Positions 8,601 through 64,000 of a stretch of 64,000 nt of DNA are shown here, piece after piece (positions within the stretch are counted from its first letter, which is position 1; every line of letters starts with the position of its first letter). The position numbers and the translations under genes were made by a program. Origin of the DNA: an uncultured Synergistales bacterium (GTDB lineage: Bacteria > Synergistota > Synergistia > Synergistales > Aminobacteriaceae); the NCBI GenBank assembly GCA_905233565.1, contig CAJOCL010000001.1, positions 62,001 to 126,000 of the forward strand, given 5' to 3'. The notes beneath the pieces were generated by a model, which did not search any database, was not told the DNA's origin, and saw nothing but the letters and a program-made list of their open reading frames with translations.

Positions 8601-8628
8601 AGATAAAGCATAGAAGATAAAGCATAGA
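8601..8628. repeat. 14-bp tandem duplication upstream of fliY
   Basis: AGATAAAGCATAGA occurs twice head to tail (8601-8614 and 8615-8628), just before the AAGGAAAT ribosome binding site of fliY. The copies are identical. Confidence 0.9.
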
Positions 8629-8642
8629 AAGGAAATAGATAA

Positions 8643-44903: not shown

Positions 44904-45262
44904 CAACAAGCAGGGTAAACGGGAACTCGAACATGACAGGCGAGTATTTACTAACTTAAAAGAATCTTCATGTTTTTGTGCGCGACAGAAATTCATATGA
45001 ACTCATACACAGGACAGACTTGTTTCCTAATGCAAAAAGCGTGACTCATATTCCCGATATGGTCTGTTCAATGGATTTTCAGAATCTATCATCAGAAAAA
45101 CGTTCTGGTGTTTTAGTATGTATGAGGAATGATATTGAGGGGGTACTGGAGGAAAAAGAGCGTAATAAACTTTACGCTTGTCTTCTCAGTGAAGAAGGAA
45201 AGCTCTGGACTCTACGCATAAATGGAGCAATTCAGGACTTCTGCCATATTTCAGCAAAATAA
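44902..45262 (+). pseudogene. Broken polysaccharide pyruvyl transferase
   Basis: The reading GKRELEHDRRVF (about 44902-44955) in one frame, then KNLHVFVRDRNSYEL and PDMVCSMDF with GVLVCMRND in another (44960-45262), match consecutive segments of the middle of a pyruvyl transferase. The N-terminal part is absent, the frame shifts near 44957, and the C-terminal catalytic half is lost after about residue 85 of the second frame. The remnant directly abuts the broken glycosyltransferase, pointing to a deletion between the two genes. Confidence 0.75.
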
Positions 45263-45290
45263 CAGCTTTAATTTCAGAGAGAAATTGAGA

Positions 45291-45530
45291 ATGATGAATA
45301 ATCAAGAGATAATCAAGAGATTCGTTGAATGTACAATACCGATTTCGCACTGTAACCTAAAGTGTAGCTACTGCTATATTATTCAGGAAAAACGAAGGAA
45401 TGTCGATATGCCGCAATTTCAATACTCACCTAGCTATAGGCAAGGCTTTCAGCAAAAAACGCTGGTGAGGTACTATGCTAGTGAATCTGTGCGGGGTCAA
45501 TGAAGCTATATACGTTATTATTCTTACTTT
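45291..45530 (+). pseudogene. Broken radical SAM protein, N-terminal fragment
   Basis: The fragment begins at ATG 45291 and reads ECTIPISHCNLKCSYCYI, with the CxxxCxxC cluster motif of radical SAM enzymes. After PQFQYSPSY the frame is lost: another frame continues IGKAFSKKRW then, past a stop, MLVNLCGVNEA, as expected for the intact family. A frameshift plus truncation removes the rest of the TIM barrel. Members near polysaccharide genes often act on glycans or peptides, but this copy cannot work. Confidence 0.75.
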
Positions 45531-48624: not shown

Positions 48625-48816
48625 TTAAACATACTGTTCAACCTGATCATGAACGACTACAAGATTGTTGAAGTCTTCAATCTGCGGACGCTGTACCATG
48701 ATAGGTTCCCTTACGTGCATGAACTGCGTTTCCGTCCTGCGGATAACGAAACCGCGTTCAAGCCTGCTGACATGTCCTGCCGTATTGTTTATTACGCTTG
48801 TCTGTACTACTCGCAT
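48625..48816 (-). CDS. Small protein of unknown function
   Basis: 63 residues. It is supported by a strong ribosome binding site (AAGGAGGG, 9 nt before the ATG) and by an excellent terminator 13 nt after its stop, which together mark a real short gene. The protein is rich in Val, Arg, Gln and His, has no membrane helix or signal peptide, and no domain I know. A later stretch REPIMVQRPQIEDFNNLVVV is mildly amphipathic. It lies between the Synerg-CTERM gene and citDEF, but the terminator separates it from the citrate genes. Function unknown. Confidence 0.7.
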   Translation of the reverse strand: MRVVQTSVINNTAGHVSRLERGFVIRRTETQFMHVREPIMVQRPQIEDFNNLVVVHDQVEQYV

Positions 48817-48863: not shown

Positions 48864-49607
48864 CTATCTTTTGCGTTTGAGCGAATAAATTAGCGCAGTT
48901 GCTGCGAATACCGCAAAGCCGCTTAGACCTGCATCACAGCCTCCGCTGGTGCCTACTCCCCACAATCCGTCATTGAAATATACCATTGTTGCAACGCTGG
49001 CATATCCGCCTAAATCTTTATCAGTGAAACTTGCTACGATGTCCTGAGAGGTCAGATTTGCTTTTGTTGCGCTGTTCCAGTTGAAGACTTTGAGCGACAT
49101 TGCACCGCCGATCGGGCCGGCTCCTAAGAAGAGATACCCGTGTTCAGTGTCTTCAAATATGCCAAATTCCATCTGTACATTTTCCCTGACAGCAGCGTAA
49201 CTTGTTAAATAATCTCCGCTTACGTTCAAATATGCAGAGGCCGGAACATCGAACAGGCCTAAATCAGCAACTATGTCAGGAGATACCCTCCAGCTTGAAC
49301 AGTGATAGAATTTCACGTCAGAAGAGAACGCGCCGACATCAACGCTCTTGTTGAGATATTCAGGATTGCCGTTCAGTTCAGAAACAACGAAATAGAATCC
49401 GTTATTGCCGTCTAACGGAGGATTTTCAACTTCAAGCTCCATTGTAGAAGAGTATACGACTGAATAGCCGTCGGTACTGTTCCAGTGAGAGAGGAAATCT
49501 GCATCGTCAGAGAGGATAACACCCTCAACCATGAAATATATACCGTCATGGCCGTCAGTGAAGGGCTTTTCAATCTCAACGCCGAAGCGGCTGCCGTTAT
49601 CCATCAT
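48864..49607 (-). CDS. Synerg-CTERM protein, C-terminal part (frameshifted)
   Basis: 247 residues with no signal peptide of its own, though the mature region looks secreted. The C-terminus SGGCDAGLSGFAVFAATALIY followed by KRKR is the Synerg-CTERM type of sorting signal: a GC motif, a hydrophobic helix and a basic tail. The body repeats a (H/N)WNS unit every 90 or so residues, like a beta-propeller. It is the downstream part of the gene at 49618-50832; a 13-bp duplication at 49643-49668 puts it out of frame. Deleting one copy gives a continuous 651-residue protein. As it stands this part has no ribosome binding site and may not be made. Confidence 0.8.
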   Translation of the reverse strand: MMDNGSRFGVEIEKPFTDGHDGIYFMVEGVILSDDADFLSHWNSTDGYSVVYSSTMELEVENPPLDGNNGFYFVVSELNGNPEYLNKSVDVGAFSSDVKFYHCSSWRVSPDIVADLGLFDVPASAYLNVSGDYLTSYAAVRENVQMEFGIFEDTEHGYLFLGAGPIGGAMSLKVFNWNSATKANLTSQDIVASFTDKDLGGYASVATMVYFNDGLWGVGTSGGCDAGLSGFAVFAATALIYSLKRKR

Positions 49608-49617
49608 GGTAAGAACA

Positions 49618-50832
49618 TTATTTGCCCCGTCCCAAATGTACGTATGAAGTCTGTATATGAAGTCTGTAATTAGACTGCCCGGCGATGTCTGCAGATTCAG
49701 TAGAGTAGAACAATACTATTTTTCCCTTATGGTCTCCCGAAGCAATGACGAGATCTGCCGTTGTCTGTGCATTTGCGAGGGTTGCTTTTGTTAATCTCTT
49801 AGTGCTGTTCCAGTGATAAACGGCTGTATCCTTGCTTGCCGTTCCTGCCTGCGCGTTAATGTCGCCTGAGTAAGTGCCCATATAAAAGCCTCCGACGTTG
49901 TCAGGAATGGGGGACTCAGTGTCGATGTTGTATCCGCCTATGTCTGCAGACGTTATTATTACTTCATATGATACGGGGTTAGCGGCCTCATTGATTCTTA
50001 TGATTTTTGCCGCGTCAGACGATGCAGTGTCATAGACTACAAGGACTGTTGACTTGTCCGTTGCCGTGTTGCTGATGTCGACAAGTCCGCGTCCGGGTTC
50101 AGGGGCAGCGTTGGCAGCGGTCTCATCGTCAGGACGTTTCGGCGTAATGTCAAGGCCCGTTCTCGGGAAATGGAAAGCGGCCTTTCTTTCCAGAGTATTC
50201 CTGTCATAAACGAAAATGTCACTGCTTATGGGTGTATATGATCCGTCAGCACTTACCGCAGTACGGTTTGAAGCCCAGACGTAAAGGACATTTGCGTTAT
50301 TCGTCAGACCTACGAGGCTGTAGACGTTATAACCGCTCTCAAGGGTTGTGCTTCTCGGTGCCTCCCAGTTGAGAAGGTCATGGCGCGTCAAAGTAGTTCC
50401 GTTGATTGCGTATATAATGCCTTGTGTATCGGGAGCAAGTTTCAGGTCTGCGGAAGCTATGGGATTCGGCGTAACTGAAAGCGTCAGTTCAGTTGCGAGC
50501 GGAAGGTCTATCCCGATAGAGGCATCATAGACATCGAAGTAATTTATGTTTTCGTTGGTCTTGTTTACTTTCGTGTCGTAAATGTACCTTTTTCCGTTGC
50601 GCGTGAACTCCGCTAAACCGTGCTGTCTGTTGTCGCCTGAGATTACGACTCTAGGAACGATTCTGCCGTTCACGAAATCAATACGCCCTATGCCGTAAGT
50701 TGCAATACTGGCAGCATTCGGGGCGAGAATGTCTCCTGAAGAAAAGCTGTAGAGAAGCGATGAAGCGGAAGACGGGACAGCCAAAGAAAATATCAACAAC
50801 AATGAAACTGCAATAAGTACTAACTTTTTCAA
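49618..50832 (-). CDS. Synerg-CTERM protein, N-terminal part (frameshifted)
   Basis: 404 residues. A signal peptide (MKKLVLIAVSLLLIFSLAVPSSAS) starts it. The body has repeated NWEA/HWNS-type blade motifs shared with the downstream part, consistent with a surface beta-propeller. The last 13 or so residues are out-of-frame sequence after the 13-bp tandem duplication, so the encoded protein lacks the Synerg-CTERM tail and would be released rather than anchored. AAGGGAG lies upstream of the ATG. The two parts are one gene split by the duplication. Its role at the surface is not known. Confidence 0.8.
   Translation of the reverse strand: MKKLVLIAVSLLLIFSLAVPSSASSLLYSFSSGDILAPNAASIATYGIGRIDFVNGRIVPRVVISGDNRQHGLAEFTRNGKRYIYDTKVNKTNENINYFDVYDASIGIDLPLATELTLSVTPNPIASADLKLAPDTQGIIYAINGTTLTRHDLLNWEAPRSTTLESGYNVYSLVGLTNNANVLYVWASNRTAVSADGSYTPISSDIFVYDRNTLERKAAFHFPRTGLDITPKRPDDETAANAAPEPGRGLVDISNTATDKSTVLVVYDTASSDAAKIIRINEAANPVSYEVIITSADIGGYNIDTESPIPDNVGGFYMGTYSGDINAQAGTASKDTAVYHWNSTKRLTKATLANAQTTADLVIASGDHKGKIVLFYSTESADIAGQSNYRLHIQTSYVHLGRGK
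49643..49668. repeat. 13-bp tandem duplication causing a frameshift
   Basis: TATGAAGTCTGTA occurs twice head to tail (49643-49655, 49656-49668), identical. Thirteen is not a multiple of three; one copy less restores the reading frame across the Synerg-CTERM gene. Confidence 0.95.
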
Positions 50833-55545: not shown

Positions 55546-56859
55546 TTACATGAAAACTTCAGCGGAGCCGTATTCGTCCCATTTTATGAGACATTTAAGA
55601 GGTTCGATTATCTGATCCGGGTACATTACGGGCCAGAACGTATCTGACTCATCATTCAAAATATAAAATGTGTATCTGTCCTTGTCAGAATCCTCAAAAT
55701 CATCCCTCAGCGAGCGGACGTCCAATTCTCCCCTTGAAATATCAGTTACTGAGTCCAATAACTGCTTCCACATGGCCTTCTCTGATTCGGGCAGCATGTC
55801 TATAATATCGCTCTTTATTCCCTCTTCATACGGCCCTGTTGATACGCGCTTTTCATTCGGCTGAATTTTCACGGGTTCAGGCACTGCAGGCTTTTCGCTT
55901 TGCAAAGTTTCCGGCTCCGGCTCTGATACAGGCTCGGACACGGGGTCAGGCTCAGGCTCAGGCTCTATATCCGGCTCAGGTTCAATAACCTGCTCATGCT
56001 CAGGCTCTGTAACCGTTTCAGTTTCAATTTTGGCCGGCTCTTCGTCAGGAACATTCACGGGAGTTTCTGCAATTTCAGCATGTTCCGCCACACTGTCAGC
56101 ACCTTCAAATCTCCTTAACAATTCCTGAGTTACCGCCCTGTAGCATTCAGCACCTTTTGACTTCGGGGAATACTCGAATATTGACATGCCCATGCTTGAC
56201 GCTTCAATTATGCTGACATTCTGACGTATATAGCTGTCGAATAATAATTCACCGAACGAGTTTTTAACGTCCTCGTAGATTTTTCGGGATATATAAAGTC
56301 TCGGGTTATAGTTCGTCATCAATATTCCAGCGATTTCAAGTTCAGGGTTAAGGCGTTCCCTGAAAATTCCCATTGAGCGGTCTAACAGCCTCAATCCGAA
56401 AAGGCTGTAAAATCCCCCGTCCATCGGCACAATTATTTTATTGCAGGCAGCAAGAACATTCTGCGTGAATATTCCGAGCTGAGGAGGGCTGTCGAGAAAA
56501 ACATAATCGTATCTGTCCGGATCAATCTTCTTCAGGGCATCACGCAAGGCAGTTTTTTTGCTGACGGGGCCTTCATCGTTCAATTCTGCCATTACAAGGC
56601 TTAACGAACTGGGGACAACGTCGATCCCCTCTTTGTTTATCACTATATCGTCCCATTCGGCAGAACCTGAGAGCAGATCAAACACCTGAGGATCCGTAGG
56701 CGACGGATTAAGCCCGAAACCTGCGCTCAGGTTGCTTTGAGGATCCATGTCAACAACTGCAATTTTTTTGCCCATTTTTGACAGTGCTGACGCTATATTT
56801 TGACATGCGGTTGTTTTTCCGACACCGCCTTTAAGGTTGCAGAAGCCTATTATAATCAT
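55546..56859 (-). CDS. ParA-family ATPase with acidic C-terminal extension
   Basis: 437 residues. The deviant Walker A KGGVGKTT lies near residue 10, VDMDPQSNLS near 38 and FLDSPPQLG near 120, as in Soj/ParA ATPases. From about 260 to 335 comes a low-complexity Glu-Pro-rich stretch, then a C-terminal domain of about 100 residues I do not recognise. ParA proteins position DNA or protein cargo in the cell. No parB or parS-like site is next to it. Its ATG overlaps the stop of the secreted TPR gene (ATGA), so the two proteins are made together. Probably not a chromosome-partition ParA. Confidence 0.85.
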   Translation of the reverse strand: MIIIGFCNLKGGVGKTTACQNIASALSKMGKKIAVVDMDPQSNLSAGFGLNPSPTDPQVFDLLSGSAEWDDIVINKEGIDVVPSSLSLVMAELNDEGPVSKKTALRDALKKIDPDRYDYVFLDSPPQLGIFTQNVLAACNKIIVPMDGGFYSLFGLRLLDRSMGIFRERLNPELEIAGILMTNYNPRLYISRKIYEDVKNSFGELLFDSYIRQNVSIIEASSMGMSIFEYSPKSKGAECYRAVTQELLRRFEGADSVAEHAEIAETPVNVPDEEPAKIETETVTEPEHEQVIEPEPDIEPEPEPDPVSEPVSEPEPETLQSEKPAVPEPVKIQPNEKRVSTGPYEEGIKSDIIDMLPESEKAMWKQLLDSVTDISRGELDVRSLRDDFEDSDKDRYTFYILNDESDTFWPVMYPDQIIEPLKCLIKWDEYGSAEVFM

Positions 56860-58874: not shown

Positions 58875-60809
58875 ATGGCAGGCGATATAAGACACGGCGT
58901 ATCACCGATAACGGATTATGATATTTTCCTGTTCAAGCAGGGAACTCATTATCATCTTTATGAAAAGATGGGCGCACAGAAATTTACGGATGCTGACGGC
59001 ACGGAAGGAGTTGCTTTCAGCGTATGGGCACCGAACGCGCAGGCAGTCAGCGTTGTAGGGAACTTCAACGGCTGGAACACTGAGTCACACCCTCTGGCTG
59101 CACGCTGGGACGGCTCGGGAATCTGGGAAGGTTTCGTTCCCGGAATAAGCAAGTGGGAACTGTATAAATTCTGCATAAAAAATTCTCACGGCGAAATCAA
59201 AGAAAAAATGGATCCTTTTTCACGCGCCTTTGAACTTCCTCCGAGAACGTCATCAATTACTCACTGGCCGGAATATCAATGGGGCGATTCTGAATGGCTT
59301 TCAAAACGCGGCGAAAAAATGAATCTTTCGGCACCTTTAAGCGTCTATGAAGTTCATATGGGATCATGGCGCAGGCACTGGGATGACGGTTTATCGCTCT
59401 CATACCGTGAAATGGCTGAGGAACTTCCCGGTTACTGCGAAGATATGGGCTTCAACGCTGTTGAATTTCTGCCCGTTATGGAACACCCGTTCTACGGCTC
59501 ATGGGGTTATCAGACTTTGGGATATTTTGCGCCTACAGCGAGATACGGTACTCCCGAAGATCTGATGTACCTGATTGATGAGCTTCACAAGAAAAATATA
59601 GCCGTAATCCTTGATTTTGTCCCCAGCCATTTCCCGACTGATGATTTCGGCCTCGCACGTTATGACGGAACGGCACTTTATGAGCATGAAGACCCCCGAA
59701 AAGGCTATCACCCTGACTGGGGCAGCTACATATTCAACTACGGGCGCAACGAGGTAAGGAGTTATTTAATCTCATCGGCTGCTTTCTGGATTGACCAGTA
59801 CCACGCTGACGGGCTGAGAATTGATGCTGTTGCTTCAATGCTTTATCTTGACTATTCACGCAAAAACGGCGAATGGGTTCCGAACATTTACGGAGGACGT
59901 GAAAATCTCGAGGCAATATCGCTTTTAAGGGACATGAACAGCGAGTTATTCGGGCGTTTCGGGACAATCCAGACAATCGCCGAAGAAAGCACCGACTGGC
60001 CTATGGTAACGCGCCCCGTATTCTTGGGAGGCTTGGGCTTCGGAATGAAATGGAACATGGGCTGGATGCACGACACACTCGATTACATGAGCCATGAGCC
60101 TATTCACAGGAGCTGGCATCAGAATCAATTGACATTCTCAATCTGGTACGCATTCAGTGAGAATTTCATGCTTCCTTTGTCACATGACGAAGTTGTACAC
60201 GGAAAAGGCTCGTTAATAAACAAGATGCCCGGCGACTGGTGGCAGAAACGCGCAAATCTGAGGCTTTTATACGGCTATATGTGGGCGCATCCCGGCAAAA
60301 AACTTCTCTTCATGGGCGGTGAATTTGCACAGGGTCTCGAATGGAACCACGATTCAGCCTGTGAATGGCATTTGCTGCAGAAAGAAGATTTCAGGGGGAT
60401 TCAAGAGTGGGTTAAGGATTTGAATCACGCGTTGCAGAAATACAAGCCGTTATATGAACTTGATTTCAGCCCTGAAGGTTTCAGGTGGGTTGACTGTTCG
60501 GACTGGCAGCAGAGTGTTATAGTATGGCTCAGAAAAGGCAAGAGCGATGATGAGTACATACTGTGTGCGGCAAACTTCACGCCCGTTCCCAGATACGGCT
60601 ATCGTGTCGGCGTTCCGCGTTCGGGATTCTGGAAGGAAATTCTGAACAGTGACGCACCCAAATACGGCGGAGGCGGTTTAGGAAACTGCGGAGGATTTGA
60701 GGCTGAAATGGTAGAGTGTCATAATCTGCCGTACTCATTAGTGCTTACGCTCCCACCGCTCGGAATAGTTATGTTTCATTTCAAAGTGAACAACGGACAG
60801 AATAATTAA
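58875..60809 (+). CDS. glgB: 1,4-alpha-glucan branching enzyme
   Basis: 644 residues. An N-terminal carbohydrate-binding module 48 (VGNFNGW near 60) precedes a GH13 barrel: DFVPSHF, the nucleophile Asp near 316 in GLRIDAVASMLY, the acid Glu near 370 in IAEEST, and the third acid in LSHDEVVHGKGS. GlgB forms alpha-1,6 branches in glycogen. AAGGGGG lies upstream. No other glg genes are adjacent. The length is slightly shorter than E. coli GlgB, which has an extra N-terminal module. Confidence 0.97.
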   Translation: MAGDIRHGVSPITDYDIFLFKQGTHYHLYEKMGAQKFTDADGTEGVAFSVWAPNAQAVSVVGNFNGWNTESHPLAARWDGSGIWEGFVPGISKWELYKFCIKNSHGEIKEKMDPFSRAFELPPRTSSITHWPEYQWGDSEWLSKRGEKMNLSAPLSVYEVHMGSWRRHWDDGLSLSYREMAEELPGYCEDMGFNAVEFLPVMEHPFYGSWGYQTLGYFAPTARYGTPEDLMYLIDELHKKNIAVILDFVPSHFPTDDFGLARYDGTALYEHEDPRKGYHPDWGSYIFNYGRNEVRSYLISSAAFWIDQYHADGLRIDAVASMLYLDYSRKNGEWVPNIYGGRENLEAISLLRDMNSELFGRFGTIQTIAEESTDWPMVTRPVFLGGLGFGMKWNMGWMHDTLDYMSHEPIHRSWHQNQLTFSIWYAFSENFMLPLSHDEVVHGKGSLINKMPGDWWQKRANLRLLYGYMWAHPGKKLLFMGGEFAQGLEWNHDSACEWHLLQKEDFRGIQEWVKDLNHALQKYKPLYELDFSPEGFRWVDCSDWQQSVIVWLRKGKSDDEYILCAANFTPVPRYGYRVGVPRSGFWKEILNSDAPKYGGGGLGNCGGFEAEMVECHNLPYSLVLTLPPLGIVMFHFKVNNGQNN

Positions 60810-62778: not shown

Positions 62779-64000
62779 GCAGCGGTCAACGCACAGCCTG
62801 AAGCCGCTTCTTCTGAGTATCTCGCCAAGTTTTCAGTCAGTCCGAATAACAGTGATGCCGTCTTCCGCATTACTTCGTTATTCCTCATGCCGTTGCCTGA
62901 AACGTAAAGGCTTCCTGCCTCAATGCCCGTTATCATTTTCATCTGTTCATACATTGATTTAAGCTCCGAGATTATGCCCCTGATTACTCCTACGGTGAAT
63001 GCGCCGGCGCAGAAATTTTCCGCACTTATCCCCGTTATGCTTCCCGTAATATCGGGCTGTGTTCTCGTTCCGTTGAAACGTGTGTCGACATTCCACGCTT
63101 TTCCCAGTCCGCAGGATTTCAGGAAATCAGCCGCTTTTTCGTTCATAATTCCGTAGCAGTCATTGCCTGCAATTTCCCTGAAAAGCCCTTCAAGCATTGC
63201 ATAAGCCCTCCCCCCGCAAAGTGCTGAACCTGACAAAATATAATTATCACCGAACGGCCTGATCTCTATATCACTATGGACATCAGAAAATTCACGAATC
63301 ATTAATGAAACCTGGGAACCCGTCCCAACGTTCAGGAGAAGAACATTCCCTGAATTTTCACCGCCCGTTGCCCCCATGAAGCACGCCTGATTATCGCCCA
63401 TTGAACAGATTACCGGCACTCCGTCTTTAGTATGTCCGACAGCCTCATAATTTTTCACTGTTTCGGGAATGTATGAGAGATTTACGCCCGAACTTGATAA
63501 CGCGTCATTCATGAAAATTTTATTTTTAACGTCATATCCTCCCATACCTGCGGCCATGTCAGGCGAAAGAACAGGGCTTTTATTTCCGCATAGCCTCATC
63601 GCTATATAGTCGCTCATCGTCGTGAATTTCACGGCATTGCTTGGAATTTTCCCGCTCTCCTGAAGGTATAAATGTGTTCCCATTCCGTAACCTTTTGGAA
63701 CGTTCAGGCCGTTTTCTTTCAGGATTTCACAGGCCGTCTTTCCGTCATGATTTTTCAGGCTTAAACTTCCGCTGTTGTCCTGCCATGTGTAAAGGGGGCT
63801 TGCTGATTTCCCGTTTTTGTCAACATAAAGTATTCCGTGCATTTGTCCCGTTAAGCCTATAGCTGAGGGCTTTTCACCGCCGAAATTTTTAACTAAGTCA
63901 TCAACATTTGAAAATACTAAATCCGCTATGCGTTCGGGATTTTGAATTTTGCTCCCTTCAGATTCTCCCGTTATGAATGCCCCGTGCTTTATCGTTCTGC
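62736..64000 (-). CDS. FGGY-family sugar kinase, N-terminus beyond window
   Basis: The frame is open to the right edge, so the N-terminus is cut off. The conserved LTGQMHG motif of FGGY kinases lies near the start of the visible part. The following stretches (TGSQVSL, the phosphate-binding region; CGGRAYAMLEG; and VSGNGMRNNEVMRK, the adenosine-binding site) place it near sedoheptulokinase or xylulokinase. It phosphorylates a sugar, feeding the pentose-phosphate pathway. The substrate cannot be fixed. Its last 43 nt overlap the permease gene head-on. Confidence 0.88.
   Translation of the reverse strand, partial: RTIKHGAFITGESEGSKIQNPERIADLVFSNVDDLVKNFGGEKPSAIGLTGQMHGILYVDKNGKSASPLYTWQDNSGSLSLKNHDGKTACEILKENGLNVPKGYGMGTHLYLQESGKIPSNAVKFTTMSDYIAMRLCGNKSPVLSPDMAAGMGGYDVKNKIFMNDALSSSGVNLSYIPETVKNYEAVGHTKDGVPVICSMGDNQACFMGATGGENSGNVLLLNVGTGSQVSLMIREFSDVHSDIEIRPFGDNYILSGSALCGGRAYAMLEGLFREIAGNDCYGIMNEKAADFLKSCGLGKAWNVDTRFNGTRTQPDITGSITGISAENFCAGAFTVGVIRGIISELKSMYEQMKMITGIEAGSLYVSGNGMRNNEVMRKTASLLFGLTENLARYSEEAASGCALTAAQNKNSTKRALTSE

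Follow-up and report, generated by a model that had tools for sequence, protein, structure and literature searches.

A surface-protein gene of an uncultured Synergistales bacterium has probably been inactivated by a recent, spontaneous 13-bp duplication. The gene lies in the window, the 64,000-nucleotide stretch of DNA analyzed here, and appears to be a single-copy gene for an exported protein with a Synerg-CTERM tail; the duplication shifts its reading frame, and the result is better described as a loss-of-function allele than as an evolved switch. The original prediction had offered a recent mutation as one of two readings, and this one is supported, as no relative shares the duplication, it is the sole lesion in the frame, and it has counterparts in seven other species whose copies carry breaks of their own.

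Organization of the split gene

The gene is represented in the window by two consecutive frames on the minus strand. The 5' fragment (49618..50832) is a 404-aa frame with a TTG start, the hydrophobic N-terminus of which resembles a signal peptide by eye, and which is 55-60% identical to its relatives in genomes G009 and G016. The 3' fragment (48864..49607), a 247-aa frame, follows directly and ends in a Synerg-CTERM-like tail composed of a GGC motif, a hydrophobic stretch and KRKR. Near the end of the 5' fragment, the 26 bases at 49643-49668 consist of two exact head-to-tail copies of TATGAAGTCTGTA (on the coding minus strand, two copies of TACAGACTTCATA), which confirms the predicted repeat. 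A 13-bp unit (13 = 1 mod 3) shifts the frame, and the 404-aa frame stops at a TAA about a dozen out-of-frame residues past the duplication. Deletion of one copy yields a single frame of 651 residues (48864..50832, minus strand) with its stop at 48864, again as predicted.

An apparent signal peptide (by eye) at one end and a Synerg-CTERM tail at the other had also been predicted for the joined protein. The former is present on the joined frame and on the intact homologues, while assignment of the latter is borderline: the 247-aa frame reaches 20.2 bits with the TIGR04564 profile, and a search of the genome gives 23.7 bits, against a curated cut-off of 22.5. At its C-terminus the protein shares a GGC motif, a hydrophobic stretch and a basic end with Synerg-CTERM proteins; however, the score lies near the cut-off, and the body matches no Pfam family. 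Neither half, nor the intact homologues, reached the cut-off of any family in Pfam, and a profile search of the PDB returned no relative of the protein body. A fold could not be taken from the predicted structure of a homologue, as the model, built with three sequences, was poor (mean pLDDT 36). Rhombosortase-processed GlyGly-CTERM anchoring was considered and set aside, there being no TIGR03902 match in the genome at E 0.1. Synerg-CTERM was not mentioned in the literature searched.

Ancestral form and age of the break

The genome of the window (G000) is a 2.02-Mb draft in 34 contigs, and the genomes compared with it, one per species, are likewise all drafts, several of them fragmentary. Homologues of the joined protein were found in 11 of 37 genomes of the genus and in 0 of 24 from the rest of the order. 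Two are intact, in G009 (683 aa; L003/L017) and G002 (649 aa; L008); both are colinear with the joined frame and have a hydrophobic segment at the start and a Synerg-CTERM-like tail at the end. The relatives read straight through the junction (...HVIKPYIWDG in G009, compared with ...YRLHTYIWDG in the one-copy frame of the window), and neither the 13-bp pair nor any other exact tandem at the same place occurs in the aligned homologues. Alignment thus identifies the joined 651-residue form as ancestral, and excludes the case, named in the original prediction as its refutation, that all relatives carry two separate genes here.

The coding sequence has been under constraint. For the pairs in which saturation is less severe (G002, G006, G022, G030), dN/dS is 0.12-0.19, in broken and intact copies alike; pairs that include the window copy give 0.14-0.24, values that are only indicative due to saturated dS. 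The window copy contains zero further stops in its 1953 coding bases, from which an upper bound (95%) of about 0.05 substitutions per site follows for neutral decay since the loss. The duplication is its only lesion, and one frame-destroying lesion in an otherwise constrained frame is what characterizes a recent pseudogene or null allele. Together, coding constraint and a single lesion suggest that the break is young.

Recurrent breakage across the genus

Of the 11 carriers, eight, including the window copy, are broken, two are intact, and one (G006) has an in-frame deletion. Judging from the alignments, the same gene is broken independently in seven other species of the genus, and no frame-breaking lesion is common to two of the copies aligned. 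The lesions are varied: G022 contains two nonsense codons and G030 one; G016 combines a 1-nt deletion, an in-frame deletion and a stop; deletions in G029, G019 and G010 have left only pieces of the gene; and in G007 the frames of the signal peptide and of the body lose register at a G7 tract. As the genomes are drafts, several of them fragmentary, individual lesions could be consensus errors. An apparent decayed copy before the small conserved gene of G011 (see below) proved to be another frame, which is open and has a tail resembling Synerg-CTERM.

Breakage of this kind is rare in the control genes, which were looked for in 22 of the 36 relatives from the same genus, a set of genomes not identical to the test set. 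The Fisher tests were confined to two control families: L018, another Synerg-CTERM protein, was broken at 0 of 13 places matching at 38% identity or more (against 8/11, p = 2.2e-4), and glgB, a glycogen-branching-type enzyme (58875-60809), was split in at most 1 of about 20 (against 8/11, p = 1.7e-4 with 1/20). In the larger L022 family three stops were seen. A surface protein is therefore repeatedly inactivated across uncultured, apparently gut-associated species of Synergistota while comparable proteins stay intact in largely the same genomes, and this contrast offers a measurable sign of selection against the protein or of a relaxed need for it.

Several details of the sister copies are of separate interest. 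The G7 run of G007 (L006, around 3393, minus strand) is located at the end of the signal-peptide frame and is a slippage-type lesion. The copy in G006 (L009) retains an open frame from which roughly 50 residues are missing between two VYD/AYD motifs, and about the same 50-60 residues have been lost in frame, in parallel, from the G016 copy (L014), on a separate branch of the family. Both deletions fall between two short direct repeats (TATGAC); in the window copy, two TATGACA direct repeats (50028..50208, minus strand), 174 bp or 58 codons apart, are in register with the ends of the deletions.

Origin and consequences of the duplication

The 13-bp pair is not explained by chance. Exact tandem pairs of period 10-39 number four in the window against a mean of 0.12 in first-order Markov copies of it, and those of period 13 or more number two against a mean of 0.0. 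Short exact tandems arise here as ordinary products of mutation: 106 with a period of 8 or more occur in the 1.08 Mb surveyed (53% of the genome), and in 64 of these the period is a multiple of three. Of the 106, none but the 13-bp pair brings two substantial frames together when a copy is removed, and a genome-wide strategy of tandem-duplication switches was rejected on this count. Further short tandem arrays are found in the window at 811-850, 8601-8629, 55820-56002 and 63705-63760; taking one copy out of the array at 8601 does not connect any two substantial frames. An exact 10-bp tandem, ATTCTGAAAA, is located at L103:2283 (G000 contig position C14:22283) inside a 716-aa frame, assigned by eye as FtsK-like, that is apparently intact and that would be broken by the loss of one copy.

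The duplication may have arisen in a single step. An origin through microhomology was considered and discarded, as the repeat has no overhang (the run is exactly 13) and hence no visible junction microhomology. The frameshift would yield a 404-residue product lacking the C-terminal 40% and the sorting tail, so that the anchored protein would be destroyed; the apparent signal peptide and the Synerg-CTERM-like tail lie on different chains in the window allele. Since it retains the apparent signal peptide, the truncated product could be exported and released. Many host-associated populations may do without the gene or select against it, in which case null alleles would recur and become the majority. 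The duplication could also collapse by replication slippage, and with two of the eight lesions being of slippage type (the 13-bp pair and the G7 tract of G007), occasional phase variation would fit as well.

Alternative explanations

Reversible phase variation, in which the 13-bp pair forms and collapses by slipped-strand pairing and the protein alternates between an anchored full-length form and a truncated form that is released or null, is an unlikely account of the locus. An exact two-copy repeat with a unit that is not a multiple of three, in a surface-protein gene, is what such variation calls for, the frame of G007 breaks at a homopolymeric tract, and pneumococcal capsule genes offer a precedent, at least by the titles of the reports (Waite 2001, 2003, cited in PMC4022640). 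However, the repeat is absent from all homologues, which have no site in common, and most sister lesions, being nonsense codons and large deletions, are not reversible by slippage. Moreover, silent two-copy repeats exist in the same genome, such as the 10-bp pair in the FtsK-like gene, and no similar gene-splitting repeat occurs in 1.08 Mb. The repeat therefore alters the frame, as expected of slipped-strand phase variation, but is not kept in relatives. A dedicated switch predicts that the repeat is conserved or that other surface genes contain similar ones; neither was seen, and it is thus not favored. The on/off switch between anchored and released forms in the original prediction has accordingly gained no positive evidence.

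Slightly less probable still is a contingency locus at the level of the genus, where random lesions, some of them reversible (tandem duplication, G-tract slippage), would switch the gene off under fluctuating selection, for example by phage or host immunity; the 8 of 11 species with broken copies would then happen to be in the OFF state, with the coding sequence still constrained over the longer term. The nonsense codons and large deletions in the relatives point to loss rather than to such a locus. That the living cells carry one copy, and the second is an assembly or sequencing artefact, is very unlikely: the draft does consist of 34 contigs with runs of N, but a 26-base stretch is much shorter than a read and would normally be resolved by a de Bruijn assembler, exact 13-bp insertions are atypical of short-read error, and the control families are intact in this genome. 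Least probable of all are two separate functional genes, with translation of the 3' frame beginning at an ATG of its own, at 49607, or by reinitiation. Overlapping stop/start motifs do follow the break (TAATG, then TGATG), but the protein is one chain across the junction in all intact relatives, and a 3' product without a signal peptide would not be sorted to the surface.

Known systems resemble the recent null allele favored here to different degrees. In pneumococci of types 3, 8 and 37, spontaneous tandem duplications in capsule genes have been linked to phase variation, according to the titles cited (Waite 2001, 2003; PMC4022640). As at the present locus, these appear to be short duplications that lie within the reading frame of a surface determinant and could in principle revert; however, phase variation is reported there, whereas here only genomes are compared, and the relatives carry lesions that do not arise by slippage. 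In nontypeable pneumococci, wchA has accumulated independent lesions of several kinds, including premature stops, frameshifts, a short tandem duplication and a deletion (PMC4022640). The mixture of many independent lesions in one gene is the same, although wchA varies across strains of one species and has a known function, whereas the split gene varies across the species of a genus. In Staphylococcus aureus, a minority of inactivating agr mutants revert (PMC6686034), and a minority of otherwise random lesions may be revertible here too; the agr reversions shown occurred via a poly(A) tract or a duplication-plus-inversion, and an agrA duplication mutant gave no revertants (PMC6686034). Were part of the losses reversible, this would be, to our knowledge, a first hint of phase variation in the Synergistota group. 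Otherwise, they caution that a split gene in drafts of this kind is often a null allele of recent origin.

Neighboring genes

The split gene adjoins a gene for a conserved small protein of 63 aa (48625..48816, minus strand), both in the window and in five relatives. The small protein is present in one copy in 37 of 37 genomes of the genus, including those without the surface protein, and in 0 of 24 elsewhere in the order; it is 68-94% identical in the relatives and has no Pfam match. It is not needed to explain the split gene.

Elsewhere in the genome, contig C13 carries, a short distance apart, two frames of Synerg-CTERM type whose tails are similar (L020:39-362 and 1471-2958), perhaps reflecting a gene duplication. 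In the window, short frames on the plus strand at 44978-45503 have a CxxxCxxC-like motif (CNLKCSYCY) and a radical-SAM-like start, end after about 90 residues, and contain an 11-bp tandem near the start (45298-45321); they have no Pfam match and are possibly a gene remnant.
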